Shown here: positions 1-22,870 of the stretch, in pieces
How positions within the stretch are numbered: position 1 is the stretch's first letter
Layout: every line of letters starts with the position of its first letter
Source of the DNA: a virus
Virus record (IMG/VR): IMGVR_UViG_3300008117_000488
Location: 1-25,709 of that record
Length of the DNA: 25,709 nucleotides
Reading direction: 5' to 3' (one strand)
Translations under genes and position numbers: made by a program
The notes under the pieces: generated by a model
What the model was told of the DNA's origin: nothing
The model's input: the letters and a program-made list of their open reading frames with translations, nothing else
Database searches by the model: none

Positions 1-3000
1 GGGAACACAGGCTGAATGTACGCTTCCACTTCGGCGGTGGTGGGATCGTCGGCGGAGACGTTGGCGGAGACGCCGGTGTAGGCGGCGAGGATCTGGGCGT
101 CGACGAGGCCGCGGAGGGTGGCGGTGAGTTGGCCCTCGATCTGGGACAGGATGCCGGGGAGGAACTTGGTGCCGATGTACCGTTCGAGGGTGGTGCGGGA
201 CTGGCGCTGGGTCTCGTCGACGATCTGGATGATGGTGGGGAGCTTGGTCAGGATGGTGGACATGTCCGTGGTGAGTCCCTGGCGGACGCGGAGGACGGGG
301 GTGCGGTCCTCGATGACGGTGATGCCCCTGACGGCGACCTGGTTCTGTTCGACGGCGTCCAGGGTGCGGGCGAGGCGGGTGGCGCCGACGAGGCGCTTGC
401 CGGTCCAGGGGGTGGCGACGTCGGTGTTCGGGGACACGACGGACCCGGCGAGCATGGCGGCCATGTACGTCCCGTCGACGACCGTCTGCTCGTCGGGGGC
501 ACCGCCGGGCTGCGGGATGGGGACGATCATCACGTCGGGGTACACGAGGCGGAACCGGGTGCGGCCGATGGCCGAGGCCCAGTTGCCCGCCGTGGTGAGG
601 GTCGTGCCGGACCCGAACCCGCACAGGGCGGTGCGCTCGGCGCGGTGGCGGATGTCCGACTGGATGTCGCAGTGGCGGGACAGGTACTGGAACAGGTCGA
701 GGTTGTCGCCCTTGAGCGGGACGAGGATGTCGGGCAGCGTGCCGCCGGGCAGCGGACCCTCGAGGTCGTCGATGGCGTTGCGGTACGCGGTGGCGGACGC
801 GCGGGTGCCGTTGTCCTCGTCCTTCTGGACCTGCTTGATGCCGACGAGGACCGCGCCGTTGAGGATGGCGAGGTACGCCGCCAGGGTCACGGGGTTGTCG
901 GTCGAGAGCGGGCCGTAGGTCGCCTCGATGGCGGAGAACTTCGTGAACAACTGCGTCTGGTAGTCCTGCTTCCGGTACTGGTACGAGACGTAGTACAGGT
1001 CGCCGACGGCGGGTTCCTCGCCGGACCGGGCCATGGTGTCGACGGTGGCCGAGTCGCCGACCGTCACGTTGATGGTGTTGGTCACCAGCAGTTCGACGCC
1101 GGGGATGGCGTTGGTCGGGAGGTTGGAGTCGGTGACGGCGGCCTGGCGGACGCGGATGGTGAAGTACTCCGTCGCCGGGTACAGGCTGCCGCCCGTGCGG
1201 GGGAGCACGGTGAACGTGAGGCCCGTGACGAGGTCGCGGTACGTCTGCCCGACCACGCCGTCCTGGCCCGTGCCGCCGTTGAACACCGAGGTGTTCGCGG
1301 AGCCGGAGCCGTTCGGGTCGGTCGAGGTGACGTAGAACCCGGACACGCCCGCCTCGCCCACGGCACCGTCGCCCGACGCGGCACCGAGGCCCGTGCCCTG
1401 GCGCAGGGCGTCGTTGGACGTGGCGGTGCGGAGTGCGACGGACGACGTGGTGCCGAGGCCCGCGTTGGCCTGGGACTGGACGGTCAGGTACTTCGCGCCG
1501 CCGGCGTCCGTCGTGACGTAGGCGAGGGCCTCCGCCGCGAGGTAGGTCGCCGACGGGCTGTCCCAGGACAGGATGGACGTGGCGACCGTGGCGGCCACGT
1601 GGCCCATGAGGGCGGACGCGAGGTTCTGCGCCGACGGGAGGACGCGGGCGGCGACGTCGCCCGCGGAGAACCCGAGGACCCCGTTCGCGCTGCCGTCGCC
1701 GATGGACACCGCCGAGGACGCCGTGTCGAGGAGGCTGACGATGCGGAACGCGGCGCCCTCCTGGACGCAGCGGCTCGACGCGGAGCCGAGGCCCGCGGCG
1801 GTCATGGCGGCGCGGATCTGCCCGATGACGGAGTTCGCGCCGCTGCCGGGGCCGACCGGGACGTCGGCGGACCCGCCCGACGGGATGGCCGTGCCCGTGT
1901 CGTCCGTGAAGACCACGGTGACGGGGACGCCGTCGACCGTGAACTTGAACACGTTGTTCTGGTCGCTGGTGCCGCCCGCCGCGTAGAAGGTGACGATCGG
2001 CTGGCCGTCGGCGTTCGCCACCACACCGGCGGAGTACTGCCCGCCGGCCCACCCGACGTACCCGGCGATGGACGCGGGGAGGACCGACGCGCGCTGCGCG
2101 GCGGGGACGGTGGTGTTCGGGGTCAGGCCGACGTTGGTCGACCCGTTGCCGCCCAGGAACGTGATGCCGAGGCCCGTGCCCAGGGACAGCGGGTGGACGG
2201 TGCCGAATCCGGGGACGACGCGGTTGCGGAGGATGATGCGGTCGTGGGTCAGCGCACCCGTGTTGTCGCCCGCGATGGAGTACCGGCGGGCGATGGGGGC
2301 GTCGAGGACCTTCGTCTGGGACGCACCGACGATGCCCGTGTCGATGCCCGCCACGACCGCGAAGTCGCGGGCGGGGGATGCGTTCGTGACGAACTCGAGG
2401 TACCCGGCGTTGTCGCCGACGGCCTTCGTGAGCGCGAACACCATGCGACCGCTCGAGTCGGCGGTCACGGCGACCGTGAGGCCCGCGAACGCGCCACCGA
2501 GGGTGCCGATCTGGGCGGCGACCTGGCCGTCGACCTCGGCGGCGAGGGCGGCGGCGTTGGCGTAGGTGCCGGGGGTCAGGGTCGCCGTGAGCGTGCCGGA
2601 CGCACCGGCGACGTCGCCCGTGTAGTGGAACGACAGGCGGTCGTACTCGCCACCGGCGACGGTGAACGCACCCAGGAACCGACCCGCGGCGGCGAACCGG
2701 GCGGGGGCGGAGGCGGCGGACGTGTTGATGGCGTTGACGTAGTCGTCGAGGGTCGAACCCGCACCCGACGCCGCCGTCGCCGCGAGAACCACGCCGTCCA
2801 CCGTGAAGTTCAGGGTGTCGTTCGTGGCGTCGATGTCGTAGGTCGTCCCGCCCGACGAGGCGAGGTACGCGACCTCGGACCCGACCATCGCCGCCGTGAA
2901 CCCCAGGTTCGGGGCCGCGGCGTCGGGGCACGGGGTCGTCAGGTCGATGCCCGCCGCACCGTTGGCCAGGGCCGCGCCGTCCACCAGGAGGCGGAGCTTG

Positions 3001-4931
3001 TCGGACGCGGCGTTGACCGTCGCGTAGTCGCCCGCGAGCGGGAACGTGTAGACGGCGGGGGTGGAGTCGGTCGCCGCGAAGGTGACCGTCACGTCCTCCT
3101 CGACGGGGGCCTCGTAGAGGGCCGTGGAGAACGGCGTCTCGAACCGGGCGTCGGGCTTGCGCTCCGACCCGGAGGGGAAGTTGACCGTGACCGTGGCGAG
3201 GCCCGAGGACTTCAGCCCGAAGGTCGGGGTCAGCAGGTACGTGCCGCCCTCGTTCTGGACGGTGTACGCACCCGTGCCCGACTGGCCCGCCGTCGTGACG
3301 ACGAGCGAGTAGACCTGGTCCTGGATGGTGTTGTAGTAGAACGTCGCGTAGACCGTCGCCCCGGCGGGGACGGGGTCCTTCAGCGTGACGGTGTTCGTCG
3401 CGCTGTCCACCTTCAGGACGGTGACGCGGCCCCGGTCGATCGCGTCCTGCGGGCCGTAGCCCCAGTACGCGAACACCAGGTCGGGGCGGTCCGTCGGCAG
3501 GTCGATGCGCCCGTTGCTGACCGTCTGGAACAGGGAGGACCCGAGCGGGCTGCCGCGACCGTTGCCCGTCGTCGGGGTGAGCGGCAGGACGAACTTCGTG
3601 CGGGACTCGACCGCCGGGTTCACGGTCGTGTCGACGAATGCGGCGCACGGCTCGAGGTAGGTGCGGGTGTCGACCAGCGTCGCCGTCACCTGGGACGAGT
3701 TCAGGTACTCCGACCCGGTGGTGTGCGTGCCCGACGCGACGATGGCCGCCGTGCCCCACACGATCTTGTCGTCCTGAAGGGTGAAGTCCACCCCGTCGGT
3801 GTAGTCGAACCGACCGGGGGCGATGCCGCACTGGGTGATGTCCAGCACGTCCACGTGGGCCAGGTAGTCGAACGTGTCCTGCCAGGTGTTGAAGTAGTAC
3901 TGGACCGTGACCGTGGACCCGTCCGCCGGGGCGAACGCCAGGGTGACCGCGCGGCTGGCGCCGTCGACGGACACGGGGATGACCTGGACGCCGTCGACCT
4001 TCACGGTGACGCTCGCCGGGTCGGTCGTCGTGACGCCGCCGTTCGACCCGTCCACGATGGGACCGTTGAAGGTGTAGAACGTGCGGGTGCGCGCCGTGTC
4101 GGTGCCCGCGACGAACCCGAGGGTCGAGTTCGCGTTGCCGTTGCCGACGACGATGTCCCGGTCGGCGACGAGCTTGACGCCCGTGCCGCCGTAGTTGTTG
4201 ACGAAGGTCGACGCGACCAGGGACGTGGTCCCGGCGGCGGCGTTCACGAACGCGGCGACCTGGGCGGCCGTCCACGGCGTCGCGCCCGAGTCGGGGATGG
4301 TGACCGTCACCGCCGTCCCGTCCACCGTCAGGGACAGCGTGTCGTTGTCGCCCGTCGAGATCTCGAAGGTCTCGCTGCCGAGGCCGTACACCGTCGCGGC
4401 GTCGGCGGTGACCTGTGCGGACAGGTCGTCGGTGACGAGGGTGTCCGTGCGCTTGAAGAAGTAGGTGATGCGGACGTTGTCGTCCGCGTTCGGGCCGAAC
4501 GCCAGTTCGACGATGCCGTTCGCACCGTCGAGGTAGGTGACGACCACGGGCTCCCCGTTCACCGTGACCGACACGCTCGAAGCCTTCGTCGCCGTGGTCC
4601 CCGTCCCGTTGCCGTTGACGATCGGGTAGTGCCGGACCTGGACGCGGCGGCGCTCGCCGTCGAACGCACCCAGGGTCACCGCGCCGGACTGACTGACCGA
4701 CACGACCGCGCGGTTCGCCAGGTCCTCCTGGACGATGCGCTGGTCCACCGTGGACGAGGAACCGCGCACGACCTCGAGGTCGCCCTGGAAGAGGATCTCG
4801 GAACCGGTGCCGATGAAGGTGGGGATGCGGAGCCCGGCCAGGACCCCCTGGACGGGGCTCTCGAACAGGGTGCGCGTGTAGACACCCGGCGGGGCATAGA
4901 TGCTTCCAGGAAACGACACGGTGAACCCCAT
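1..4931 (-). CDS. Contractile tail sheath protein, very large, 3' end outside the window
   Basis: At least 1,643 residues; the frame is open to the window edge. The N-terminus carries the sheath-like PPGVYTR (residues 14-20). The last 300 or so residues match the conserved sheath C-terminal core: a YGPLSTDNPVTLAAYLAILNGA-like stretch near residue 1350, then KRLVGATRLARTL, AVRGITVIED, VRQGLTTD and TLERYIGTKF. Known sheaths are usually about 400-700 residues. The extra length, roughly residues 40-1300, is a chain of beta-rich repeats. One type, VDG...VTLAF...VTVQYYFNT, lies near 115-165, 305-353 and 497-540. Another ends in ANSTLGF or ANGVLGF, near 185-280 and 985-1090. The start is fixed by an in-frame TGA six bases upstream of ATG 4931, yet no clear Shine-Dalgarno precedes it. 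The sheath polymerises around the tail tube and contracts on infection. The sheath call is firm; the role of the inserts is inference. Confidence 0.9.
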   Translation of the reverse strand, partial: MGFTVSFPGSIYAPPGVYTRTLFESPVQGVLAGLRIPTFIGTGSEILFQGDLEVVRGSSSTVDQRIVQEDLANRAVVSVSQSGAVTLGAFDGERRRVQVRHYPIVNGNGTGTTATKASSVSVTVNGEPVVVTYLDGANGIVELAFGPNADDNVRITYFFKRTDTLVTDDLSAQVTADAATVYGLGSETFEISTGDNDTLSLTVDGTAVTVTIPDSGATPWTAAQVAAFVNAAAGTTSLVASTFVNNYGGTGVKLVADRDIVVGNGNANSTLGFVAGTDTARTRTFYTFNGPIVDGSNGGVTTTDPASVTVKVDGVQVIPVSVDGASRAVTLAFAPADGSTVTVQYYFNTWQDTFDYLAHVDVLDITQCGIAPGRFDYTDGVDFTLQDDKIVWGTAAIVASGTHTTGSEYLNSSQVTATLVDTRTYLEPCAAFVDTTVNPAVESRTKFVLPLTPTTGNGRGSPLGSSLFQTVSNGRIDLPTDRPDLVFAYWGYGPQDAIDRGRVTVLKVDSATNTVTLKDPVPAGATVYATFYYNTIQDQVYSLVVTTAGQSGTGAYTVQNEGGTYLLTPTFGLKSSGLATVTVNFPSGSERKPDARFETPFSTALYEAPVEEDVTVTFAATDSTPAVYTFPLAGDYATVNAASDKLRLLVDGAALANGAAGIDLTTPCPDAAAPNLGFTAAMVGSEVAYLASSGGTTYDIDATNDTLNFTVDGVVLAATAASGAGSTLDDYVNAINTSAASAPARFAAAGRFLGAFTVAGGEYDRLSFHYTGDVAGASGTLTATLTPGTYANAAALAAEVDGQVAAQIGTLGGAFAGLTVAVTADSSGRMVFALTKAVGDNAGYLEFVTNASPARDFAVVAGIDTGIVGASQTKVLDAPIARRYSIAGDNTGALTHDRIILRNRVVPGFGTVHPLSLGTGLGITFLGGNGSTNVGLTPNTTVPAAQRASVLPASIAGYVGWAGGQYSAGVVANADGQPIVTFYAAGGTSDQNNVFKFTVDGVPVTVVFTDDTGTAIPSGGSADVPVGPGSGANSVIGQIRAAMTAAGLGSASSRCVQEGAAFRIVSLLDTASSAVSIGDGSANGVLGFSAGDVAARVLPSAQNLASALMGHVAATVATSILSWDSPSATYLAAEALAYVTTDAGGAKYLTVQSQANAGLGTTSSVALRTATSNDALRQGTGLGAASGDGAVGEAGVSGFYVTSTDPNGSGSANTSVFNGGTGQDGVVGQTYRDLVTGLTFTVLPRTGGSLYPATEYFTIRVRQAAVTDSNLPTNAIPGVELLVTNTINVTVGDSATVDTMARSGEEPAVGDLYYVSYQYRKQDYQTQLFTKFSAIEATYGPLSTDNPVTLAAYLAILNGAVLVGIKQVQKDEDNGTRASATAYRNAIDDLEGPLPGGTLPDILVPLKGDNLDLFQYLSRHCDIQSDIRHRAERTALCGFGSGTTLTTAGNWASAIGRTRFRLVYPDVMIVPIPQPGGAPDEQTVVDGTYMAAMLAGSVVSPNTDVATPWTGKRLVGATRLARTLDAVEQNQVAVRGITVIEDRTPVLRVRQGLTTDMSTILTKLPTIIQIVDETQRQSRTTLERYIGTKFLPGILSQIEGQLTATLRGLVDAQILAAYTGVSANVSADDPTTAEVEAYIQPVF

Positions 4932-5073: not shown

Positions 5074-6096
5074 ATGGACACCTACATCATCTACAAGGCG
5101 ACTGCCCCCAACGGGAAAGTCTACATCGGCCTCACCAAGCACACCCTCGAAATGCGCAGGAAGCAGCACGAGTGGGTCATGTTCAGAGAGAAACGGCATT
5201 TCTACAACGCCCTCCGGAAGTACGGGGCGGACATGCTGTGGGAGGTCCTCGAAACAGGGGAGGGGCGCGAATGGGCCGTCGGCAGGGAAGAGCACTACAT
5301 CGCACACTACAACAGCCTCAACCCGAACCACGGGTACAACCTGACCAAGGGTGGGGACGGCACACTGGAACTTCGGGCGAGCACCCGTGCCCTGATGTCC
5401 CTTTCGGCTAAAAACCGAAGGGTGACCTACAATCAACTGGCGAATCTGAAGTACGGGCGTGTTTCCCGCCCACACTCTGAAGCGACGAAACAACGACTGC
5501 GCGCATTGGGGACGGGCCGTCAGGCTTCCGAAGAAACCCGCGCCGCCATGTCCCGTGCGAAGAAGGGCGTACCTCATGGCCACACACACAAGCTGAGGAT
5601 GCAAATGGCCCAAGCACACCCCGTCCTACGCGATGACGGCCGTCCTTTTTCGTCGGCGCGACGGGCGGCAGTGCTGATGGGGGCGGCAAACGACGATGCC
5701 GTGGCCAAGGCTCTGCGCCGTGGCGGCACGTGTGGAGGTTTCACCTTCAGGGCCATTCCGCAGGAGGAGTACGAGGTCGCCCTCATCGCTTGGGATAAGA
5801 AAGTCGCCGAAGGACACACGGAACGGGAGCCCGTGTGGACACGCTCACGCGCGGGACACAGGCACAACCCCACAGTTCGGGCGAACATGTCGAGGGCAAA
5901 GAAAGGCAAGGTTCACACACCCGAACACCACAAGAACCGTATCGCGGCGATCAGCAAACGGGTTCTTCGATCAGACGGTCGAACCTTCGATTCCATCCTG
6001 AAGGCGGCTCAGGACATGGGGTTGACGCCTGGACAGATCACGTACTCCATCAGGACGGGGTGTTCCCGTGACGGGATGACTTTTTCCTGGGCCTGA
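5074..6096 (+). CDS. GIY-YIG homing endonuclease with NUMOD DNA-binding modules
   Basis: 340 residues. The N-terminal nuclease domain (about 1-95) has YIIY at 4-7, VYIG at 16-19, the catalytic arginine at R28 or R29, and a REEHYIAHYN segment (71-80) holding the catalytic glutamate. Two NUMOD3-like segments follow (about 134-165 and 270-290; SEATKQRLRALGTG, SRAKKG). Two NUMOD1-like segments lie near 183-224 and 297-338, each with a DGR.F start and a G.TF end. This layout is typical of free-standing phage homing endonucleases that cut intron-less or marker DNA and spread by repair. It points away from the sheath gene, and the two starts are 142 bases apart. No intron splice structure was recognised. 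Upstream at 5025-5031 is a GGTATAG box that could be a -10. No strong ribosome site is visible. Confidence 0.88.
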   Translation: MDTYIIYKATAPNGKVYIGLTKHTLEMRRKQHEWVMFREKRHFYNALRKYGADMLWEVLETGEGREWAVGREEHYIAHYNSLNPNHGYNLTKGGDGTLELRASTRALMSLSAKNRRVTYNQLANLKYGRVSRPHSEATKQRLRALGTGRQASEETRAAMSRAKKGVPHGHTHKLRMQMAQAHPVLRDDGRPFSSARRAAVLMGAANDDAVAKALRRGGTCGGFTFRAIPQEEYEVALIAWDKKVAEGHTEREPVWTRSRAGHRHNPTVRANMSRAKKGKVHTPEHHKNRIAAISKRVLRSDGRTFDSILKAAQDMGLTPGQITYSIRTGCSRDGMTFSWA

Positions 6097-6113: not shown

Positions 6114-6560
6114 CTATCCACCCTTCTTTTCTGCCTGGATGGCCTTCTGGACCTCCGCGCCGATGGCACGGCCCGCCTCGGACGCGGCGCGTTCGGCGGG
6201 TTGCATCACGCGGTACGACCCGTCGGGGTTGCGCGACAGGTCGTACCCGGTCGACCCGGGGTTGTCCGCGATGACCCTGCGCTTGCGGTCCATCCGATGG
6301 CCGATGTGCTCCCACCGCTTCGCCGCGTCGCGCCCGATGGTCTTGTCGTAGTTCCAGTCGTCCGACGTCCCGGTGTTCGACGGGGCCGTCCCCCGCGTCT
6401 GACTCGCGGGGTGGTTGAACGTGAACGCCGCCGCCGTGACCATCCGTCGCGTGGACGCGCCGCAGTCGAGGCAGTCCTGGGGGGCGTCGATCTCCGACAT
6501 CCTGCGCAACCGGTCGAACCGCAACCCGCAGGCATCACACTGGTACTCGTACACGGGCAA
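6114..6560 (-). CDS. FmdB-type zinc-ribbon protein with basic C-terminal region
   Basis: 148 residues from a TTG start, chosen because the mature frame begins PVYEYQCDACG, as FmdB-family proteins do, and because GAGGGGG sits about eight bases upstream. An ATG at 6680 would add 40 unlikely residues. Zinc ligands are C8, C11, C30 and C33 (two CxxC knuckles). The FmdB family is named for a putative regulator next to formamidase; its molecular role is poorly known. After the ribbon, residues 50-148 are polar and basic with a WNYDKTIGRDAAKRWEHIGHRM segment. This segment is not typical of FmdB and may be the functional part in phage. It ends 18 bases from the endonuclease stop (tail to tail). A second, shorter FmdB-like gene is at 17213. 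Confidence 0.72.
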   Translation of the reverse strand: MPVYEYQCDACGLRFDRLRRMSEIDAPQDCLDCGASTRRMVTAAAFTFNHPASQTRGTAPSNTGTSDDWNYDKTIGRDAAKRWEHIGHRMDRKRRVIADNPGSTGYDLSRNPDGSYRVMQPAERAASEAGRAIGAEVQKAIQAEKKGG

Positions 6561-6594
6561 GGCGAAGTCCCCCTCGGTCGATTGTACCGCGACC

Positions 6595-6622
6595 GGTCCG
6601 ACCCGCCCCCGGCCGGTGTACC
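6595..6622 (+). promoter_or_regulatory. Conserved promoter-like element, copy 1
   Basis: GGTCCGA at 6595-6601, then GTGTACC at 6616-6622, with 14 bases between. The gene it would serve starts at 6664 with a good ribosome site (GGAGG, 6654-6658). It lies just inside the 5' flank of the opposing zinc-ribbon gene. The same pair of boxes recurs at 13508, 17623, 20252 and 20934, each time 45-69 bases upstream of a plus-strand start. Confidence 0.6.
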
Positions 6623-6663
6623 CGTGGTGTGCGATGAACCCACCCACCACCACGGAGGACACC

Positions 6664-6858
6664 ATGGACACCATGGACATCTACACCGCAACCGGGATCG
6701 CCGAGGGCTGGATCGATACTGACTCCGAGGAGGAGGTCGTCGAGGCGTGGCAGCGCCTCATCGACACGGGCCTCGCCTGGCGGCTCCAGGGATGGTTCGG
6801 GCGCACGGCCCAGAGCCTCATCGCGGCGGGGGTCTGCACCCCGGCGGGTGCCCGGTGA
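6664..6858 (+). CDS. Small acidic protein, unknown function
   Basis: 64 residues beginning MDTMDIYTATGIAEGW. ATG 6664 is preferred over the in-frame ATG 6673 because GGAGG ends five bases upstream. The first half is acidic (DTDSEEEVVEAW); the second looks helical (LIDTGLAWRLQG, then TAQSLIAAGV). The pattern IAEGWID...EEVVEAWQRLIDTG..W.LQG.FGR.A..LI..G is seen in short phage early-type proteins, but no function is recognised. First gene of a two-gene plus-strand island under promoter copy 1. Its TGA overlaps the next gene's GTG (GTGA). Confidence 0.7.
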   Translation: MDTMDIYTATGIAEGWIDTDSEEEVVEAWQRLIDTGLAWRLQGWFGRTAQSLIAAGVCTPAGAR

Positions 6859-7403
6859 TCGTCGGGTTCATGGGGCCCGTCGAGGTCGGCGAGGTCGTCG
6901 CCGTGGGCCCCGGCAGCGTCCTGCTGGGCCGCGACGGGAAGTTGTGGGCGGAGGACCCGGCCGCCCTGAAGTTCGGGCTGTACGAACTGCCCGACGGGAT
7001 CACCTTCGCGGAGTGGTTGCGCCGCCCGAACCACTACCGGGTCCTGTCGGCGGGGAACACGGACGCATCGCTCCCGGCGTCCGCGTGGATCGACCTCGTG
7101 AACGCGGAGGACGACCTCCTTCGGCTGTGGGTCCTGGGGCGGCTGGCGTCCTACCAGGGCCAGAGCAAGTTCTGGGTCAGCCTGCGGGACCAGGTCCGGA
7201 ACTGGCTGACGGAGCCGAACAGGATCCGGTGGGACAGCCCGCTGTCGAAGAAGCAGTGGGACGCCGCCATGAAGGTGCCGGCATCCCAGGAGAACGGGCG
7301 GCGGGCGATCGACGTGGTGGTGAACGGGTCGGACCTGCGCACCCTGTCGGAGGCAACCCGGGACCCGATGGGCGCCGTGCTCGCTCAGGCGATGCCCTCG
7401 TAG
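6855..7403 (+). CDS. Hypothetical protein, second gene of a plus-strand island
   Basis: 182 residues from GTG 6855, coupled by a GTGA overlap to the preceding gene; ATG 6870 is an alternative start. The first 30 residues look like a small beta domain (VGEVVAVGPGSVLLGRDGKLWA). The rest is mixed, with an aromatic-rich helical stretch (LLRLWVLGRLASYQGQSKFWVSLRDQVRNWL). No known domain is recognised. Its last 19 bases overlap the 3' end of the opposing virion gene, so the two transcripts converge. Third-position G+C is as high as in the neighbours, which supports coding. Confidence 0.65.
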   Translation: MIVGFMGPVEVGEVVAVGPGSVLLGRDGKLWAEDPAALKFGLYELPDGITFAEWLRRPNHYRVLSAGNTDASLPASAWIDLVNAEDDLLRLWVLGRLASYQGQSKFWVSLRDQVRNWLTEPNRIRWDSPLSKKQWDAAMKVPASQENGRRAIDVVVNGSDLRTLSEATRDPMGAVLAQAMPS

Positions 7404-8614
7404 GTCCCACCCGGACCGACGAAGAACGGGTCCTCGACGGCGCGCAGGCCGAGGTCCGCGAGGGCGCGGATGGACGTCGCCGCGTTGCCCATCGCGGCCA
7501 GTTCGTCGTCCGACATCGCGGCCGTGGCCCGGATCTGCGCGTCGGTCTGCGGCAGCGCACGGCGGACGGTCGCGGCGAGGGGGACGTGGATGGACCAGTC
7601 CGCCTGGAGTTGGACGCTGACGGACGCGTTGTAGTAGTAGTCGTCGCCGTTCTCGTCGTACGCCTCCTCGGACTCGCCCCCCATGCTGACGGTGGAGATC
7701 TCGATGCCCTCCATCGACAGGCGGCTGCGGGCGATGCCCCACAGGTACATGACCGTCAGGTCGACGATCTCCTGCTGCGCGTACACGTCGCGGGCCACCA
7801 CGTCGAAGTCGAGGCTGAGTTCCCACCGGCCGCCGTACTCCAGGGCCGTGGACTCGCGCCGCGCGGTGACGACGACGGCCATCCTGTCCCCCGCCTGCAC
7901 CCGACGGCCGAACGCGAGGACGGCACCGGGGATGGCCGTGTGGTTCGCCTGCATCTGGACGATGGGGTGCGGACCCGTCGTCGGGGCGACGTACCGGTAG
8001 TCGGCGGACAGCGACCCGTTGCGCGGCAGCGGCTCCGCCAGCGTCACGGTGCCGTTGTCCGCGTCGAGGGTGTAGTTGGTGCCCTCGAGGAGTTGGATGG
8101 CCCCCGGCATCTCGTACAGTCGCATCGACCCCGCGAGGACGGGGTTCTGCGTCTGGTAGGTCAGGTCGTCCACCTTCACGAGCGTCTCGTCGTTCACGTC
8201 GATGAGGGGGTCGACGTAGAACTGGAAGGAGTCCTCCTTGCTGTACGGGGGGACGGGCGACTCGGCCCGCACGACCTCGATGTAGTAGACGCCGGGCTGG
8301 GTGGGGAACGAACCCCCGTTGCGCTGGATGGCGAGTTCGTCCTCGCGCACCCACTCGACGGACAGGCCGGGCGAGTCGCCGACGCGGGCCAGCATGACGT
8401 GGGACTGGACCGTGCCGACGAAGTTGTCCGCGGACAGGGCCACCTGGTTCGCCGACGACGTCTTCAGGATGATGGCGTACTGGGGACGCTCCCGGAACGA
8501 GTACTTGCCCTGGATGTGGTCCACCAGGTCGCGGTACTGGGGCTGCGCGGACCAGAAGTCCCGCAGGACCTGGATCATCCGCCGCTTCACCTGCTCCGTC
8601 ATTCGGTAGTACAT
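7385..8614 (-). CDS. Probable virion structural protein (neck or tail-terminator-like), unconfirmed
   Basis: 409 residues; ATG 8614 has GAGG seven bases upstream and follows the previous stop by two bases. The N-terminus is helical (MTEQVKRRMIQVLRDFWSAQ). The middle holds a beta module, YTLDADNGTVTLAEPLPRNG, like the beta repeats in the sheath. Residues about 255-365 read as a compact mixed domain (WELSLDFDVVARD, EIVDLTVMYLWGIARSRL, DYYYNASVSVQLQADWSIHVPL). The C-terminus is a helical tail. It is the last gene of the seven-gene operon starting at 13499, which suggests a neck, terminator or baseplate-periphery role. No family was recognised with certainty; the structural assignment rests on context and the shared beta module. 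Confidence 0.6.
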   Translation of the reverse strand: MYYRMTEQVKRRMIQVLRDFWSAQPQYRDLVDHIQGKYSFRERPQYAIILKTSSANQVALSADNFVGTVQSHVMLARVGDSPGLSVEWVREDELAIQRNGGSFPTQPGVYYIEVVRAESPVPPYSKEDSFQFYVDPLIDVNDETLVKVDDLTYQTQNPVLAGSMRLYEMPGAIQLLEGTNYTLDADNGTVTLAEPLPRNGSLSADYRYVAPTTGPHPIVQMQANHTAIPGAVLAFGRRVQAGDRMAVVVTARRESTALEYGGRWELSLDFDVVARDVYAQQEIVDLTVMYLWGIARSRLSMEGIEISTVSMGGESEEAYDENGDDYYYNASVSVQLQADWSIHVPLAATVRRALPQTDAQIRATAAMSDDELAAMGNAATSIRALADLGLRAVEDPFFVGPGGTYEGIA

Positions 8615-8616
8615 GG

Positions 8617-8895
8617 TCAGGCCTCGGGCATCGCGGACCGGGAGACCTTCTCGTCGATCGCCTGGTCGATGATCTGCCGCAGTCCGACGAGGTCGTCCAG
8701 GGACGCCGTCCCGAGGCGGTCGACCATGTGGTGCTCCGTGATGATGATGGAGCAGTCCACGGGCATCGCCGACACGACGGCGTCGCGGATCCCGTCGACC
8801 GAGTCGACGTCGGCCTCGGGGCCGAGGCGGACCCACAGCACGTCGCCGGACCGCATCCGGACGACCTGGGCCATGACGGTGTCGTACAGGCTCAC
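8617..8895 (-). CDS. Small protein coupled to the actin-like gene, unknown
   Basis: 92 residues from GTG 8895, which overlaps the TGA of the actin-like gene (GTGA). AGGAG sits about six bases upstream of this start, inside the end of that gene. It reads as a small alpha/beta protein: MAQVVRMRSGDVLWVRLGPEA, DSVDGIRDAVVSAMP, SIIITEHHMVDRL, then a helical end. The coupling suggests it is made in fixed ratio with the actin-like ATPase and may be its partner, but nothing in the sequence names its role. Confidence 0.7.
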   Translation of the reverse strand: MSLYDTVMAQVVRMRSGDVLWVRLGPEADVDSVDGIRDAVVSAMPVDCSIIITEHHMVDRLGTASLDDLVGLRQIIDQAIDEKVSRSAMPEA

Positions 8896-9905
8896 TCGTA
8901 CTCCTGGATGGCCTGGAGCAGCAGGCCCTGGGCGATGGCGCCGAGGGGGTCCTTTGCGTGGCGGACCTCGGACACCTCGAACGGCAGCTTCTTGCGGCGG
9001 GTCTCGAGGACCTGCTGGAAGAACTCCGTGAACCCACCCGCCATGCTCGTGCCGCCCGCGATGACGATGGGGATGGGGCGGGGCACGGCGAACTGGCCGC
9101 GGACGCGGGCGAACTGCGCCGTGATGTTGTCCAGGGTGTACTCGATCAGGCTCTTGTAGTAGACGGCGAGGGCCTCCTGCTCGCGCCCGGTGGGCCGCGT
9201 GAGGTCGATGCCGCCCTCCTTCAGGGCGCACATGCGGGCCTGGGTCGACCCGACGGCCTTCGCGGCACCCGCGTCGATCCAGTCGCCGCCGCGGGCGACG
9301 GAGAACGACATCCCCTCGATGGTGTTCACCGCCAGGGCGACGTTCGACATGCCGGACCCGAACGAGATGCCGACGCCGCTGAAGCCGTCCTTGGCCGTCT
9401 CGTTGAACACGACCGCCATCGCCTCGTTCGACGGGACGGCGCGGTACCCGCACTCCGTCACGATGCGGCCGAGGACGCCCTGGTGGTAGATGATGTCGCG
9501 GTCGGGCGCGTCCACGGGGGCGGCGGGAACCGAGTAGTAGCACGCCTCGTTCGGCTCGGCGGGGTCGCCGAGCACCTGGCGGATGAGAAGGCCGAGCACC
9601 TCGAGGGCGTCCAGTTCGCCGGCGGCCAGCAGACCCTGCGACAGGGGGCGGCGGGCCTCCTTGCCGAACACGTTGGCGATCTCCAGGGCCTTGTCGCCGA
9701 CGATGAGGAGTTCGCCGCCGCGCTCGAAGAAGTCCACGCCCGACAGCTTCAGCATCCGCTTCGCGGACGGGTCCAGGTCCAGGAACGCGTCGCGGACGCG
9801 GCGCGTCTCGACGCCCTTCTCTGTGCGCCGGGCGGACACGATGTTCATGGTCCCGATGTCGACGGACACGCCGCGGAACGGCGTGGTGGGGGCGGTCTTG
9901 CTCAT
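8892..9905 (-). CDS. Actin-like ATPase (MreB/ParM/Hsp70 fold superfamily)
   Basis: 337 residues; ATG 9905 has GGAG eight bases upstream. The three nucleotide-binding signatures of the actin/Hsp70/hexokinase fold are in order. Phosphate-1 loop VSVDIGTMNI has D16. Phosphate-2 loop GVGISFGSGMSN lies at 178-189, with serine where the usual aspartate would be. Adenosine motif VIAGGTSMAGGF lies at 281-292. ARGGDWIDA (204-212) and PSNEAMAVV (158-166) also fit bacterial actins. Length is right for ParM/MreB/Alp proteins. Such proteins bind ATP and usually polymerise to position or segregate DNA or other cargo. Here it lies inside an operon of virion-type genes, coupled to a small downstream gene and 18 bases after a Pro/Ala-rich one. 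It might instead be a non-polymerising member. Fold assignment is strong; function is open. Confidence 0.85.
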   Translation of the reverse strand: MSKTAPTTPFRGVSVDIGTMNIVSARRTEKGVETRRVRDAFLDLDPSAKRMLKLSGVDFFERGGELLIVGDKALEIANVFGKEARRPLSQGLLAAGELDALEVLGLLIRQVLGDPAEPNEACYYSVPAAPVDAPDRDIIYHQGVLGRIVTECGYRAVPSNEAMAVVFNETAKDGFSGVGISFGSGMSNVALAVNTIEGMSFSVARGGDWIDAGAAKAVGSTQARMCALKEGGIDLTRPTGREQEALAVYYKSLIEYTLDNITAQFARVRGQFAVPRPIPIVIAGGTSMAGGFTEFFQQVLETRRKKLPFEVSEVRHAKDPLGAIAQGLLLQAIQEYE

Positions 9906-9923
9906 GGGGGTGCTCCGTGGAGA

Positions 9924-10544
9924 TCAGTTCGAGGACTTGCGCCTGCGGGTGGCCTTCAGCGCGGCGGCGGCCTCGTCGAGGTCGGCACCACCCGACGACG
10001 TCTGCGCGACCGTGATGGTCGCCGCGTCGCCGGTGGGGACGATGTTGCTGGGGATGTAGACCGGGGCGTCGCCCGCGACGGTGGGGGCGGGTCCGGCCAC
10101 GGGACCCGACGGTCGACCGCCGGGTACCAGCGCCCCCGACTTGATCAGACCCTCGATGGCCCTCGACACCCCCCGGGCGATGGCGTCCTCGATGGCGCCC
10201 GCATCGACGGCGGGTGCGGCGGGTGCGGCGGGTGCGGACGGTGCCGCGGGTTCCGGCGGCACGGGGGCCTGCACCACCCACGGGATCGCCCGCCCGGACC
10301 GCTGGGCGCGGTTCATGCGGACGTTCGGCGGGGACGGGGATCGGCTCACGAGGCACCTCCGGGCGTACAATACCGACACCGCCCCGGAGCGGACGGCCAG
10401 CAGCAGTTCCACGGAAGACCGGGCGGACTCCGCGGACACCCACACCGATTCCCCCCGACGGAGGATGAGGCCCATGTCGGCGATCCGGTACTCGGGGCAC
10501 ATGCACTCGATGCGGGCTTCCCACTCGATGGATGCGTTCTTCAC
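9924..10544 (-). CDS. Pro/Ala-rich modular protein, probable virion or assembly factor
   Basis: 206 residues from GTG 10544, which overlaps the previous stop (GTGA). Residues 1-65 form a compact domain containing IECMCPEYRIADMGLILRRG, then helix and strand. Residues about 70-110 are a low-complexity Pro/Ala linker (APSAPAAPAAPAV). Next comes a helix (DAGAIEDAIARGVSRAIEGLI), a second linker, and a basic C-terminus (ATRRRKSSN). The layout of small domain, flexible linker and basic tail suggests a tether between two assembly components. It stands directly upstream of the actin-like gene, which may be relevant. No family was named. Confidence 0.65.
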   Translation of the reverse strand: MKNASIEWEARIECMCPEYRIADMGLILRRGESVWVSAESARSSVELLLAVRSGAVSVLYARRCLVSRSPSPPNVRMNRAQRSGRAIPWVVQAPVPPEPAAPSAPAAPAAPAVDAGAIEDAIARGVSRAIEGLIKSGALVPGGRPSGPVAGPAPTVAGDAPVYIPSNIVPTGDAATITVAQTSSGGADLDEAAAALKATRRRKSSN

Positions 10545-11107
10545 TTCTTCACCAGGTTCGTGAACTGGTTGAGGGCGGCATCCCCCAGGGCCTCGGCTGC
10601 GACGTCCGCGACGCGTTCCCGCGCCCGCCTGAGCGCCACGTCGAGGAACCGGTGTCGCAGGAACCCCGGGTGGACCCACGGCCGGTCCCCCGGACCGGGG
10701 GTGGCGCGCAGGACCACCGTACCGTCCGCCCGCTCGACCGGGACGACGGGGACGCCGGCAGCGCGGGTCAGCCACGGCATCGGGTACGGGGACCGGCCCT
10801 CGACGAGGGACCGGATGAACGGGTAGGTGCAGACCACCTCGACCGTGCGCTGGCCCCGGACGCGTGCATGGAAGGAGTCGAAGAACGAGTCCGTGTTGGG
10901 GAGGGTCAGCGGCTGGCCGTTGCCCCGGGTCCGGGGGGTGGCCTCCTCGCGGGCGGCACGCCGCACCTCCTCCTGGAGGATGGTCGACATCCGCGACACC
11001 AGGTCCGCCGTGGCCTCCGCGCCCACGGACCGCGCCCACGCGCCCATGTACGCCCCACGGACGCGGAACTGGACGACCTGGTCGGGCTTGGTGGGCTTGA
11101 ACCTCAC
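10541..11107 (-). CDS. Tail-completion-like protein, weak resemblance to HK97 gp10 type
   Basis: 188 residues from GTG 11107 (GTGA overlap with the 706-residue gene). The N-terminal half is helical and charged (TADLVSRMSTILQEEVRRAAREE). A central TDSFFDSFHARVRGQ...VEVVCTYPFIRSLVEGR resembles the pattern in gp10-type head-tail or tail-completion proteins. The C-terminus WVHPGFLRHRFLDVALRRARERV matches the 'HPGFLR, then long helix' ending seen in that group. The fit is by pattern only. Its place after a large structural protein in the same operon supports a role at the neck or tail end. Confidence 0.6.
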   Translation of the reverse strand: MRFKPTKPDQVVQFRVRGAYMGAWARSVGAEATADLVSRMSTILQEEVRRAAREEATPRTRGNGQPLTLPNTDSFFDSFHARVRGQRTVEVVCTYPFIRSLVEGRSPYPMPWLTRAAGVPVVPVERADGTVVLRATPGPGDRPWVHPGFLRHRFLDVALRRARERVADVAAEALGDAALNQFTNLVKK

Positions 11108-13224
11108 GTGCCACCGCCCTTGCCGCCGTACGTCGTGTTCGCCCACACCGGGGTACGGCCGCGGATCTCACGCCCGTCGGGGATCCGCGGGACCTCGGAC
11201 CCCATCGGGGTCGCCTGGTAGTCGAACCCGGTGGGGTACGGGTCCGCCTCGACGCAGGCGGACTTCTCCGGGTTCGTGTACCGCGTCTCGGGCCAGGGCA
11301 GTTCGTCCGTGCCGGTCACGGGGACGCGGTACCGGATGTCCTGCTCGTCGAGGTACTGGATGTTGAAGTGCTGCTGGAGGGGCAGCCCGCGCACCGACGG
11401 GCGGCGGACGGGGCCGACGCTGTACCGCTCCCCCGTCTGCTTCACGATGAAGTCGCGCTGGGTGATGGACGGGTTCTCCGTCGTCCACACCTCGTACTGG
11501 TGCTCCAGTCGGCGGCCGTTCGGCGTCTGCGTCACCCGCCGGTCGGCCTCGTCGGGGGCGATGATGATGTCCGTCGGGCCGTCGTACCCGCCGACGTACC
11601 CCGTGCCGAAGCACGTCACGCACCGCGCGGACGGCTGCTGGCCGTACTCGCGGGTCACGGGGTCCAGGTAGCACGGACACGGGAGGCCGGACACCTTCTT
11701 CTTGAACAGCTTGACCCGCTCCCCGCCCTGCTCGAGGATCCACAGGTTGCGCCGCTTCGCCTCGCGCCAGATCCAGTCGACCGTCTCGACCTCGGCCAGG
11801 CCGACGGGCGGGCAGTACCCCAGCGGGGTCTCGACCAGGCCCGACGGGGACGTCCCCGTCGGGTCGATGGCGACCGTCGTCACGCGGTAGAACACCTGGT
11901 TCGTGCGGTCCAGGTCGGTGGGGATGAGGTTCGCGTTGTACCGGTAGGTCAGCGTGACGGTGGACTGTGGCGTCGGGAGGACGGGGGGCACCCACCGCTC
12001 GCGGGACAGGTCCCACGTCCGCTGGTTGATGAGCGTCACGTCCCCCGTCGGGCCGAACACCGCCTGCACCGGGACGACGACGCCGTCGATCTTCAACGTG
12101 ACGTCGGACGGGGCGTTCGCCGCCACGGCCTGGCCGTCCGCCTTGACGACGGGGGTGAACTTGGCGCGGAAGATCCAGTCCGCGTTGTTCGGGTCCGTGG
12201 CCTTCGACAGCCAGTCCCCGTCCCACCGGACGACCTCCTCCTCGATGAGGGTGTTGTCCACCTGGTCCCGGTACGCCAGCGACCCGATGGGGACGCGGTT
12301 CACCCGGACGTACGGGCCGCGCTGCCCGTTGTCCGACCGGTAGATGTTCACCCCGACGATGGTCCACGCCGTGTTGTTCACCGGGGGGCACGACGCGTCC
12401 CCGACACCGTTCGACAGCGACGGCCCCGACAGCGCCAGGTGCGCGGAGTCCGTGGACATCGTGACGGCGTTGCCGTCCGTACCGGCGACGGCCGCGACCA
12501 GTTGCACGATGTCGGCGGACACGGTTGCGACGACGACACCGGTGAGGTGGTTGACTGGGTCGTTGATGGCGTCGGCGATGGACGCCGCCGTGTCGAAGTT
12601 CGTGGGCCCGACCCGGAACGTCCCCGGGCCGCGGGGGTCGACCGTCGCGGACAGCGTGACCAGGCCGATCGACAGGGTGTCGGCATCCGCACCCCCCGTC
12701 AACGTGACACCCGACGGGACGACGAGCGGCGTGTCCGTGGACAGCGTGACCCCGTTCCCATCGACGCCGTCGGCCACGGAGACCAGGGCCACCGTGTTGC
12801 TCGCCGCGACCGCTGTGGCGACCCCCCACCCGGACACGGACCCGCCGTTGATGGCCGCAGCGATGCCAGCCGCGACCGCCGTGGCGGACGGGCCGGACCC
12901 GTCGAACGTGTCGTCCCCGGGGACGGGTGCCGCCGCCACCGACGTCAGCACCACACCGCCGATGGTGACCGTGGCCCCGACGGGGACCGGCACGGACACG
13001 ACCGTCAGCGACCCGGATGCGCGCTGGAGCGTGTCCGGCACACCCGTCACCGTGACGGTCCCGCCCGCACGGGTCGGGACGATGGACCCACCCCCCACCA
13101 TGATGGTCGACGGGTCGTCCCACCGCAGGTCGACGTACCCCACGCGGAACGCGGAGAACACCTGGAGGTTCCGGGGCGGCCACGGGAACGACCCGGGCAG
13201 CGTCGTCCACCCGGCGACGCTCAC
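11104..13224 (-). CDS. Large modular beta-rich virion protein with a cysteine cluster
   Basis: 706 residues from GTG 13224, overlapping the TGA of the upstream gene (GTGA). Residues about 45-290 hold two copies of a beta repeat with a TAxxIAxAIN helix and a DGNxVTxSTD end. About 300-350 reads like a fibronectin-type strand pattern (VNIYRSDNGQRGPYVRVN, then SLAYRD). About 375-445 carries the VDG...VTL...TYRYN beta module also found in the sheath. Near residues 512-545 lies a cysteine cluster, PCPCYLDP...CVTCFGTGYVGGY, with two close cysteine pairs; the second resembles DnaJ-type CxxCxGxG and probably binds zinc. The C-terminal 170 residues look like a folded beta domain. A tail, neck or baseplate part is likely; the exact role is unknown. 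Confidence 0.7.
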   Translation of the reverse strand: MSVAGWTTLPGSFPWPPRNLQVFSAFRVGYVDLRWDDPSTIMVGGGSIVPTRAGGTVTVTGVPDTLQRASGSLTVVSVPVPVGATVTIGGVVLTSVAAAPVPGDDTFDGSGPSATAVAAGIAAAINGGSVSGWGVATAVAASNTVALVSVADGVDGNGVTLSTDTPLVVPSGVTLTGGADADTLSIGLVTLSATVDPRGPGTFRVGPTNFDTAASIADAINDPVNHLTGVVVATVSADIVQLVAAVAGTDGNAVTMSTDSAHLALSGPSLSNGVGDASCPPVNNTAWTIVGVNIYRSDNGQRGPYVRVNRVPIGSLAYRDQVDNTLIEEEVVRWDGDWLSKATDPNNADWIFRAKFTPVVKADGQAVAANAPSDVTLKIDGVVVPVQAVFGPTGDVTLINQRTWDLSRERWVPPVLPTPQSTVTLTYRYNANLIPTDLDRTNQVFYRVTTVAIDPTGTSPSGLVETPLGYCPPVGLAEVETVDWIWREAKRRNLWILEQGGERVKLFKKKVSGLPCPCYLDPVTREYGQQPSARCVTCFGTGYVGGYDGPTDIIIAPDEADRRVTQTPNGRRLEHQYEVWTTENPSITQRDFIVKQTGERYSVGPVRRPSVRGLPLQQHFNIQYLDEQDIRYRVPVTGTDELPWPETRYTNPEKSACVEADPYPTGFDYQATPMGSEVPRIPDGREIRGRTPVWANTTYGGKGGGT

Positions 13225-13499
13225 GGGTCCACCGTGCGGACGGACCCGTCGCGGCCCACGGCCCACCCGGTCCCGGCGGGGATCCCGAGGCGCGCGGCGA
13301 TGGACTCGAGGACCCGGGTCGACTCGACCTCGATGGCGCCCACGGACGCCACCAGGCGGTGCCGCTCGACCTCCAACTCCCCGATGCGGCGCAGGGTGGC
13401 GTCCATGCGGGCCTGGACGTCCTCGAGCGCCCGCACCTCGGACACGGTCAGATCCCCGATGGTGTGCGCGTCGGCCAAGACATCCCCCGCGTCAGCCAC
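13221..13499 (-). CDS. Small coiled-coil protein, first gene of the seven-gene operon
   Basis: 92 residues if GTG 13499 is used; a TTG seven codons in has a better ribosome site (GGGGG about six bases upstream), so the start is uncertain. Residues 18-70 form a heptad-like helix (VSEVRALEDVQARMDATL, IGELEVERHRLVASV). The last 20 residues, from LGIPAGTGW, look like a small turn-rich end. It leads the GTGA-coupled series 13499-7385. Upstream on the minus strand is CCTATCGG (13508-13501), similar to the CTATCG boxes before the tagged genes further right. Unknown function; a scaffold or tail-assembly helper is possible. Confidence 0.65.
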   Translation of the reverse strand: MADAGDVLADAHTIGDLTVSEVRALEDVQARMDATLRRIGELEVERHRLVASVGAIEVESTRVLESIAARLGIPAGTGWAVGRDGSVRTVDP

Positions 13500-14402: not shown

Positions 14403-15275
14403 TCAGCCTCCCTGGTACTTCAGGTAGCCGTGAAGATCGCGCACGGTGCCGGCGGCCTGTGCCGCCTTCGCCTCGAACCAGTCGGGAAGCGGCCGACCGG
14501 CGGGAACGGCGTCGGCGAGTTCCCTGGCCTGGTCGGCGATCTGGCGGAGGTACTGCGCGGTCATGTAGTAGCCATCGGACCCGGCCACCGCGTCGCCCTC
14601 GGAGGCCTTCCTGCCACCCCCCAGGGAATCCGCCAGGTGGGAGAGACCCACAACCTCGGTCCCCAGCGATGCGACCGCCCGTCCGACATCGCGCACGAAC
14701 GACGGGCCGCTGATGGACCGGGCCTTGTCGTCCTTACCCTTGTTGTCGGACCACAACTCCCGGGCCTTGTCCACTGCCTTCGACAGGGTTGCCTTGTCCT
14801 TGTCCGAGATCAACCCCTGCTCCGCGGCGCGGCCGACGATCGCATCCACCTCGGCGGCGTGCTCGATCGCCCGCTCCAGGACCTCCTGTGCCTTGCGATG
14901 CGCGTCGGTGGACTTCTTCGGGTCGCCCTTGTACGACAGGGCCTTTTCGGCTTGCTTCTCCAGACGTTCCAGGGCGGACTCCGCCGGGGCGAAGAACTTG
15001 GTGGCGGACTGGATGGACTTGGCGTCCTTCGGGCTGTGGGCCGGGGTTTTCTTCTTCGACCCAGAGTCAGAGTCCGAAGCACCCCCGTGGACCCGCTTCT
15101 CCCAGTCCTCCTTGGGCAGGGGCTTCTCACCCTCCTTCTTCTTCCGATCGACATATTCCTGGTACGACGCGGCGATCCGGGTCGAATCCACGGCGAGGAT
15201 CGGCAGCAAGTGTGGGCGCAGGTCGGGGCGACTGTGCGCCAGGCGGATGATGCGGGTGCGAAGTGCGCTGGACAT
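14403..15275 (-). CDS. Tagged protein (N-terminal IRLA tag), helical, unknown function
   Basis: 290 residues; ATG 15275 with GAGG 9-10 bases upstream. Residues 5-27 are the shared tag (RTRIIRLAHSRPDLRPHLL). Directly after comes YQEYVDRKKKEG.KPLPKEDWEKRV (about 38-65), a polar helix plus tryptophan motif. The rest is mostly long charged helices (about 95-190) and a more compact C-terminal helical part (YYMTAQYLRQIADQARELADAV). No catalytic motif was seen. It starts a four-gene-like set with the two membrane proteins downstream. A TTATACC box at 15307-15301 on this strand could be its -10. Confidence 0.72.
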   Translation of the reverse strand: MSSALRTRIIRLAHSRPDLRPHLLPILAVDSTRIAASYQEYVDRKKKEGEKPLPKEDWEKRVHGGASDSDSGSKKKTPAHSPKDAKSIQSATKFFAPAESALERLEKQAEKALSYKGDPKKSTDAHRKAQEVLERAIEHAAEVDAIVGRAAEQGLISDKDKATLSKAVDKARELWSDNKGKDDKARSISGPSFVRDVGRAVASLGTEVVGLSHLADSLGGGRKASEGDAVAGSDGYYMTAQYLRQIADQARELADAVPAGRPLPDWFEAKAAQAAGTVRDLHGYLKYQGG

Positions 15276-15662: not shown

Positions 15663-16814
15663 TCAGACGAGCGCGGCCAGCAGGTGCGGCCGCAGGTCCG
15701 GGCGACTGTGGGCAAGGCGGATGACCCGACGGCGGAGGGCCGCGTCCTTGTCGGACTTGCCCCCCTTGTCGGACTTGCCATCCTTGCCGGCCTTGGCACC
15801 CTTCTCCTGGAGCTTGTCGATGGCGGGGATGTCGGCGTCGTCGTACCGGTCGTCGTCCTCGCCCTCGAGCATGGCCTTCACGGCGGCGTCGTCCATGCCG
15901 TCCTCGAGCGCCTTGGACACGGCGACGACGACGGCGCTGAACATGTCGGTGTAGCCGGCATCGTCGTCCTTCCCACCGTCCTTCTCTGCGGCGAAGCGGG
16001 ACATGACCTCCCACGCGGCCTTTCCGACGTGGGATGCCCCGTGGGCGGCGTGCGATGCCTCCAGCCCCCACTCGTAGTGGACGAAGAACGAGTCCGCCAG
16101 ATGGCTGATCGCCTTGATGCCGACGTGGGTCGCAAACGACTTGCCGAGCGCACCCGCCGCCATCAGCGCCCCGCCGCCGGCCGCCGTGACGGCCGCACCC
16201 GCCGCGTACGCCCCCAGCGCGTACATGGCCTTCTTCTGCTTCTTGTCGAGGGGCTTGCTGCCGGGCGTCAGCACCTGCTTCAGGGCCTTCGCACCGTGCA
16301 TCACCTCGTGGACCTCGGACTTGGCCGCGTGCGCGATGCGTGCGCCGATCGCCTTCGCCCCGTCCTTGATGGACTTCCCGAGGTCCCGCATCTTCTCCCG
16401 GCGGTACTTCCGGTTCGAGAAGAACGTCTTGGTCGCCGTGCCCGACGACTTCAGCCCGCCCACGATGTCCTGGCGGTTCGCCTTCGGCTTGACGGACGAC
16501 ACGATGTCGTTGTACGCCTTCTTGGACTCGGACCAGGCATCCTTGAAGTCGTCGAACAGGATGGCGCGGACGTTCTCGCGCAGCCGCGACCCCAGGGACG
16601 ACTCCCCGTCGGACTTGCCCTTGCCGCCGTCGTCCTTCTTGACGGTGTGCTTCGACTTGTCCGCGCCGGGGTGGTCCTTCAGGTACTTCTCGAGGGCCTC
16701 CTGCGAGTCGAACTCCATCGCGACGCGGTCCGTCACGAGCAGTTCGACGAGGTAGGGTCGCACCGCCGGGTTCGTGTACGCGAGGCGGATGGTGCGGGAG
16801 CGCAGATCGGACAT
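15663..16814 (-). CDS. Doubly tagged protein (tag at both ends) with Gly/Ala hydrophobic segment
   Basis: 383 residues; ATG 16814 with GAGG six bases upstream. The tag is at residues 4-26 (RSRTIRLAYTNPAVRPYL) and again as the last 24 residues (RRRVIRLAHSRPDLRPHLL). The C-terminal copy is closer to the tag of the 15275 gene than to its own N-terminal copy. Between them: a basic helical region (about 90-165), a strongly hydrophobic Gly/Ala stretch (about 188-220, LGAYAAGAAVTAAGGGALM) that could cross a membrane or pack as a helical hairpin, a helical part, and a Lys/Asp/Gly-rich linker before the last tag. Unknown function; possibly injected or virion-internal, as inference. Confidence 0.75.
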   Translation of the reverse strand: MSDLRSRTIRLAYTNPAVRPYLVELLVTDRVAMEFDSQEALEKYLKDHPGADKSKHTVKKDDGGKGKSDGESSLGSRLRENVRAILFDDFKDAWSESKKAYNDIVSSVKPKANRQDIVGGLKSSGTATKTFFSNRKYRREKMRDLGKSIKDGAKAIGARIAHAAKSEVHEVMHGAKALKQVLTPGSKPLDKKQKKAMYALGAYAAGAAVTAAGGGALMAAGALGKSFATHVGIKAISHLADSFFVHYEWGLEASHAAHGASHVGKAAWEVMSRFAAEKDGGKDDDAGYTDMFSAVVVAVSKALEDGMDDAAVKAMLEGEDDDRYDDADIPAIDKLQEKGAKAGKDGKSDKGGKSDKDAALRRRVIRLAHSRPDLRPHLLAALV

Positions 16815-22839: not shown

Positions 22840-22870
22840 CCGGGTCAGAGCGGACCGTCCTCGGAAGGGT
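22840..22870. repeat. 31-bp direct repeat, right copy
   Basis: Same 31 bases as 21866-21896. It covers the stop and last eight or so codons (ending EDGPL) of the 22845-23510 gene, so insertion of the neighbouring gene left that gene's reading frame whole. Confidence 0.9.

Follow-up and report, generated by a model that had tools for sequence, protein, structure and literature searches.

A volactin-family actin and its candidate upstream partner gene in the virion cassette of huge phages

Introduction

What would an actin-like ATPase do among the virion genes of a phage, and with which protein would it work? To our knowledge, published phage cytoskeletons consist either of tubulins (PhuZ) or of actins that move DNA (ParM, Alp). 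PhuZ is a tubulin whose filament handles particles in nucleus-forming jumbo phages. The stretch of DNA analysed here, called the window, is a virus record of 25,709 bases for which the annotated phage collection contains no close relative at the DNA level. A preliminary description had identified in it an actin-like gene (g08) within a virion operon, and had proposed, as one possibility, that the small gene coupled to it encodes a dedicated regulator.

Results and discussion

The actin-like gene, its family and its fold

The gene g08 lies on the minus strand at 8892..9905, with an ATG at 9905 and a stop at 8892, and encodes 337 residues; its location, frame and length stand as first described. 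The three actin-fold nucleotide loops reported for it could also be located: phosphate-1 is VDIGTMN (D16-N21), phosphate-2 is ISFGSGMSN (S181-N188) and the adenosine loop is AGGTS (G284-S287). A point absent from the earlier account is the family. By profile comparison, g08 is a member of the family of volactin, the cell-shape actin of archaea (Pfam PF25216), with 253 bits (cut-off 35) and an E-value of 6e-75 over positions 4-321 of 321 in the profile. PF25216 was matched by 54/54 representatives of the phage family (E<=0.01), a set from which the truncated locus L008 was excluded. Volactin of Haloferax volcanii (VolA, HVO_2015) has this family in common with g08, far above the cut-off, and the phage actin is 37-40% identical to most haloarchaeal members.

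An AF2 model of g08, built from 54 sequences, reached a mean pLDDT of 93.6, and as modelled g08 is a full-length actin-fold protein. Foldseek ranked MreB and MamK first, and VIA-align gave Z 28.5 for the MamK filament (295 residues, 3.0 A), 27.1 for the BeeR filament, about 25.5 for MreB, 25.4 for crenactin, 25.3 for F-actin and 24.6 for DnaK. This structural comparison, proposed beforehand as a check, thus found the closest solved folds in the filaments of MamK (the magnetosome actin), BeeR and MreB, and supports an actin-fold ATPase with filament-type relatives. In the structural alignments g08 is 14-20% identical to these three proteins, and it differs from them in having serine for the phosphate-2 aspartate. 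In a sequence-profile search of the PDB, MamK alone was significant (E 8e-7), and MreB appeared at E 0.3, below chance matches to HisF.

These results bear on an alternative in which g08 does not polymerise and acts as an ATPase switch resembling PilM, FtsA or Hsp70: as a single molecule or in small rings it would power one step in the assembly of the neck or tail, and the upstream protein g09 would be its client or adaptor. The fixed position of the actin among neck and tail genes would suit such a switch, and so would the Z of 24.6 for Hsp70/DnaK and the viral predicted structures of BFVD, where the best matches were distant and the commonest names were Hsp70 homologues. However, the closest solved relatives are filaments (MamK, BeeR), and MamK is the sole significant PDB sequence match. 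The preliminary description had named a closer likeness to a sugar kinase or to PilM as the outcome that would speak against it; both are absent from the best 50 structural matches listed per search (Foldseek, VIA-align) and from the 11 PDB sequence matches, an absence from these lists and not an exclusion.

The missing aspartate is a further point in favour of the switch. The serine noticed earlier at this place is real: S181 of g08 aligns with MamK D161, the phosphate-2 aspartate position (the residue was counted on the printed alignment), and E161 aligns with MamK E143; both of these MamK residues have catalytic roles. Serine occupies the position in 85/85 phage rows and in 50/50 cellular sequences, where only the phage count is unbiased because one of the two patterns used in the cellular genome scan required S. 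The E161 position is Glu in 85/85 phage and 50/50 cellular rows, and D16, G18 and T19 are kept in all ungapped rows (81/85 phage rows). On these alignments the serine is a family trait and not a local oddity. The loss of the aspartate could slow hydrolysis in the phage actin. Serine is nevertheless also present in four Haloferax volactin sequences (L104, L106-L108), in a phosphate-2 loop common to them and the phage actin (SFG[AS]GM.N), and the sections consulted of PMC10869688 describe volactin of H. volcanii as forming dynamic filaments in vivo whose tips touch the membrane. Judging by its congeners, H. volcanii HVO_2015 probably carries the serine too, and for this reason the residue is no argument against polymerisation. 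All in all, we regard a non-polymerising switch as rather unlikely.

Phylogeny and distribution

In the phylogenetic tree, which omits L047 and L075 from the phage set and L143 from the cell set, 55/56 phage rows form one clade with support of 100/99. The haloarchaeal and other archaeal volactins make up a separate clade (99/88), and the sequences from Planctomycetota and from an Acidobacteria contig are placed between these two clades. In this tree the phage actins are not placed inside the haloarchaeal volactin clade; they differ from archaeal volactins in having a well supported clade of their own, in being viral and in residing in a virion cassette. A single sequence, L003, stands alone on a very long branch. 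Two loci from archaeal MAGs group with the phages. One of them, L093, is nested in the phage clade, has a g09-type tail on its upstream gene and is probably a viral contig; the other, L094, on a Thermoplasmatales-MAG contig, is sister to that clade, has a g09-like gene with the FIP segment and looks viral as well.

A protein query of the phage collection retrieved two huge phages, both uncultured, one of 485 kb with 64% identity and one of 595 kb with 32%. In IMG/VR, 7 loci were found with the single-protein query and 108 with an alignment query, of which 80 were kept. The GC content of the actin loci goes from 25 to 69%. Exactly one actin copy is present in each of 16/16 large records (205-595 kb), and tubulin was detected in 0/16 of these possibly incomplete records at E<=0.001; the same tubulin model detects PhuZ in phiKZ (2.6e-8). 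The phage actin may have a role in common with the PhuZ spindle, as a filament of the cytoskeleton that handles the particles of a giant phage, even though PhuZ has a tubulin fold and g08 an actin fold. A gene for a VanY-type peptidase is present in the window as well (19446-20189); it suggests that the host is a bacterium with peptidoglycan.

Volactin-family actins are found in other settings too. In Planctomycetota and related MAGs (L136-L140) the actin belongs to a cellular operon, and the N-terminus of the upstream protein resembles that of phage g09; the operon neighbours are presumably TPR-like proteins, with what we take to be a histidine-kinase-like gene in L138 and L140. In many haloarchaeal genomes another domain of volactin type occurs within open frames of great length (about 770 to 1340 aa; for instance G006:C1:710374-711321), with the appearance of a fusion.

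The actin belongs to a virion-type cassette

Synteny was analysed with a home-made gene caller (trained on GC3 or length; starts approximate) and iterated HMMs in 86 loci, that is, 85 loci and the window; the set was not dereplicated and includes some near-identical loci (e.g. L034-L036; L005 and L009). With gaps, the gene order is g12-g11-g10-g09-ACTIN-(0 to 6 variable genes)-g06-zinc ribbon-sheath-like, and the cassette is seen in contigs of up to 485 kb. All its genes in the window are on the minus strand. The small conserved gene g12 (13221..13499) and the unnamed conserved gene g10 (10541..11107) were each found in 49/86 loci. Between them, g11 (11104..13224; 84/86 loci) encodes a putative virion structural protein (PHROG: head and packaging), with phrog_1004 in 11/21 members of its family (best E 1e-5). 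The next conserved gene downstream of the actin, g06 (7385..8614; 80/86 loci), encodes a virion-type protein of 409 aa whose family has weak PHROG matches to virion structural protein (3/26 members) and tail terminator (1/26). It is followed by g03 (6114..6665; 75/86 loci), for an FmdB-type zinc-ribbon protein (PF09723, E 1.4e-11), and by g01 (3..4931), for a giant tail-sheath-like protein of at least 1643 aa that runs off the window end and has homologues in 84/86 loci. The sheath identity comes from PHROG tail sheath in 2/12 members (best E 4.5e-23) and Pfam Phage_sheath_1C in 1/12; against PDB sequences, the sheath, g06 and g11 families gave nothing convincing. Where apparently complete, the sheath-like proteins measure about 1300-1860 aa, and 7/12 members match DUF2460. 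Within the minus-strand cassette there is a plus-strand gene of 340 aa (5074-6096), with a similar one in L010; its start looks to us GIY-YIG-like, and we assume a probable homing endonuclease.

By these family matches, the cassette of the actin is of virion type. The syntenic loci support the earlier placement of the actin in a virion operon, with the Pro/Ala-rich linker protein g09 (9924-10544) upstream and g06 downstream as had been described, and they favour, as a possibility, the role in particle assembly or positioning that had been suggested. In the 595-kb phage (L003) the actin lies outside the cassette and no g09 was recognised.

In nearly all loci the actin keeps company with virion genes, those for the sheath and neck-type proteins among them, and this might also mean that the actin is built into the particle itself, as a filament or as a collar located in or on its neck or tail. 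No virion proteomics of these uncultured phages is known to us. A passive structural part would not be expected to keep its nucleotide site, as the phage actins do throughout, and we see only a small chance for this possibility.

The same location bears on whether the filaments could instead move viral DNA through an adapter, as in systems of the ParM/AlpC type. Phage actins of this kind exist: in the Corynebacterium prophage CGP3, AlpC is likewise accompanied by an adapter gene, and in the parts of PMC4446434 and PMC5539076 consulted AlpA binds DNA and the AlpC/AlpA system moves viral DNA. The actin studied here, however, is in a virion cassette and not in a replication or partition locus, and g09, unlike AlpA, showed no DNA-binding family, with no match at all in Pfam or PHROG. 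Nor is there an iteron array near the actin, the only repeat being a 9-base codon repeat within g09. We therefore judge a DNA-positioning system improbable. An iteron-type centromere beside the actin operon was sought at 7300-11200 of the window, which is a fragment, and none was found; a partition system was rejected for this lack of iterons.

The 92-residue gene is not the conserved partner

The gene g07 (8617..8895, minus strand) is coupled to g08 as reported: its frame of 92 residues opens with a GTG at 8895, in a four-base overlap (GTGA) with the stop codon of the actin, and ends at 8617. This translational coupling is what favours the proposal that the actin works with the 92-aa downstream protein as a dedicated regulator. 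When the two-gene pair was looked for in other phages, as had been recommended, homologues of g07 occurred at that place in 4/86 loci, and the slot between the actin and g06 held 83 proteins in 41 clusters. A search for the 92-aa protein in two huge phages and one contig gave 0/3, with no positive control. The regulator proposal is largely refuted by the 4/86 count, and we now see it as highly improbable; on the same distribution g07, a lineage-specific gene, was rejected as a conserved partner of the actin. A different gene, conserved and of about 216 aa, stands between g09 and the actin in 22 loci (e.g. L043, L060, L062), with the pattern HHWSTSG...LLFERLYNE...AERI, which to us brings to mind Dps/ferritin-like proteins.

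The conserved neighbour is the upstream gene g09

The conserved neighbour of the phage actin is not g07 but the upstream gene g09, a point that the preliminary description did not make. It is found upstream of the actin in 78/86 loci, at a distance of 1 (45 loci), 2 (20), 3 (10) or 4 (3) genes, so that in 33 loci one to three genes intervene. Of the 8 loci without it, 7 start no more than about 0.5 kb from the actin start at the contig edge (L005, L008, L017, L037, L046, L070, L074), and the other is L003. In the window, g09 (9924..10544, minus strand) encodes 206 aa, laid out as an N-terminal domain, a Pro/Ala linker, a D-P-FIPS segment and a C-terminal helix (residues 189-203). In the AF2 model the N-terminal domain (residues 8-62; 10359..10523, minus strand) has a pLDDT of about 97 and the helix about 82. 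The C-terminal motif ADLDEAAAALKATRRRK (9936..9986, minus strand) is common to the tails of volactin-associated DUF7139 proteins. Foldseek gave no PDB match for the N-terminal domain at E<=0.001; as no known fold matches it, its role as a candidate docking domain is a guess from its position. No hydrophobic segment was found in the window g09 with a hydropathy window, and any such segment occurs in 2/78 g09 proteins.

A motif shared with the archaeal volactin neighbour

The cellular set was obtained by genome scan and comprises 51 loci, mostly haloarchaeal. The gene directly upstream of volactin belongs to one family in 35/42 archaeal loci; in the other 7 the partner is absent at -1, one of them being cut by a contig edge. 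In each of the five archaeal upstream proteins examined there are four or five hydrophobic segments, and the tail is charged; 4/4 of those scanned are Pfam DUF7139. The operons differ: the haloarchaeal upstream protein is a DUF7139 with four hydrophobic segments, whereas the phage g09 is soluble. No DUF7139 membrane protein was found directly upstream of g08, and what the phage and archaeal upstream proteins have in common is the C-terminal motif, for example SGGGVDDQAAALKELREQ against GGADLDEAAAALKATRRR.

A PSSM of this short motif was trained solely on 70 phage g09 C-termini. In the phage loci it scored 10 or more in 75/78 g09 proteins (training set included) and in 3/1231 other proteins. 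Over all proteins of the cell loci, the top 24 were upstream genes, the first of them that of the viral-looking L093, which was kept in the count; the median was 11.3 for upstream proteins and -4.5 for the rest, and, once upstream and actin proteins are set aside, the highest scores among the remaining 497 proteins were 10.8 and 10.1. Of 2000 shuffled tails, 0 or 1 scored as high as the real tail for 7/7 haloarchaeal partners tested, 3 for an Acidobacteria neighbour, 15 to 164 for examples from Methanophagales, Thermoplasmatales and Archaeoglobaceae, groups in which the motif is weak, and 1483 for an example from Planctomycetota, a group in which the motif is not recognisable. It should be noted that the counts in all these motif tests overstate the independent evidence, because the archaeal partners are kin. 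When a 31-position profile made from phage sequences only was run over four whole haloarchaeal genomes in six frames, the volactin-upstream gene was the best match in three (E 0.01, 0.03 and 0.05) and the fourth of four listed matches in the other (E 3.8).

Comparisons of whole profiles pointed to the same genes. With HHalign, the full g09 profile was compared with 510 neighbouring proteins, and the top 26 were all upstream genes (L093 excluded); the haloarchaeal proteins align at the C-terminal motif of g09 and those of Planctomycetota at its N-terminal domain. Alignment against alignment, the P-value was 3.6e-4 for the haloarchaeal upstream proteins at the motif and 2e-5 for the Planctomycetota upstream protein at the N-terminal domain.

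The strongest test is the comparison among DUF7139 copies, since it separates the motif from general family kinship. In 18 copies hand-picked from a longer list, the motif was present in 4/4 that are volactin-associated (3/3 adjacent and one 103 kb from volactin) and in 0/14 without such association (8 copies from genomes with volactin and 6 from genomes without a match over the cut-off). A limited literature search did not find DUF7139 linked to actin. The co-occurrence of volactin and DUF7139 was discarded as uninformative: over the cut-off, DUF7139 is present in 114/116 haloarchaeal genomes and volactin in 69/116, and DUF7139, nearly universal, is also multi-copy.

A possible filament and its tether

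The motif common to g09 and the volactin-adjacent protein suggests that a viral filament is linked to the assembly of particles. In our preferred reading, to which we give an even chance, the actin and g09 are a two-part module of the huge-phage virion cassette, with a polymerising actin, an actin-binding helix and a virion-docking domain. The phage actin, of the volactin family, would most likely polymerise with ATP and would hydrolyse the nucleotide; the positively charged C-terminal helix of g09 would bind this actin, and the N-terminal domain would dock on some part of the virion, be it neck, tail or head. In archaea, the motif on the tail of the DUF7139 membrane protein encoded upstream of volactin would tether the filaments to the membrane, and the Haloferax filament tips do touch the membrane, as would be expected with a membrane-borne motif protein. 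The soluble domain of g09 would in the phage take the place of this anchor. Late in infection, heads or tails could then be positioned, transported or ordered by filaments attached to parts of the particle.

The broader proposal, that huge phages have a complete filament-and-tether actin machine in common with archaea, its membrane anchor swapped for a virion-docking domain, is more tentative, and we place its chance a little below even. If true, it would mean an actin-based handling of virus particles, with an actin connected to virion genes throughout a broad set of huge phages in which no tubulin was detected, and the motif would mark DUF7139 as the membrane tether of archaeal volactin. A limited literature search found no volactin-family actin in phages. 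In the main text of the huge-phage paper PMC7162821 the word "actin" is absent and PhuZ is mentioned, and in the jumbo review PMC13282480 its sole match is within "Actinobacteria".

Other features of the window

Outside the cassette, a plus-strand gene (21341-21859) encodes a 172-aa protein with an internal g09-motif PSSM score of 13.6 (DTGDVDAAFDALRKASQN), the top score of the 1231 non-g09 phage proteins. In addition, several proteins that are otherwise unlike one another begin with a recurring leader about 25 residues long (RxxLIRLAHxxPxLRPHLLPLL, or RLASTLPVGSxxRRAIL). It is borne by the window regions 14403-15275, 15663-16814, 17964-18776, 22845-23510, 24340-24804 and 24866-25621, and is also found in L002, L004, L028, L037 and L038; with a crude pattern it was detected in 11/1309 phage-locus proteins (at least one of them spurious) and in 0/597 cell-locus proteins. 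This leader could be a capsid-targeting or maturation signal. By BLAST, the leader sequence also appears at the C-terminal end of two window proteins, of 383 aa and 270 aa.
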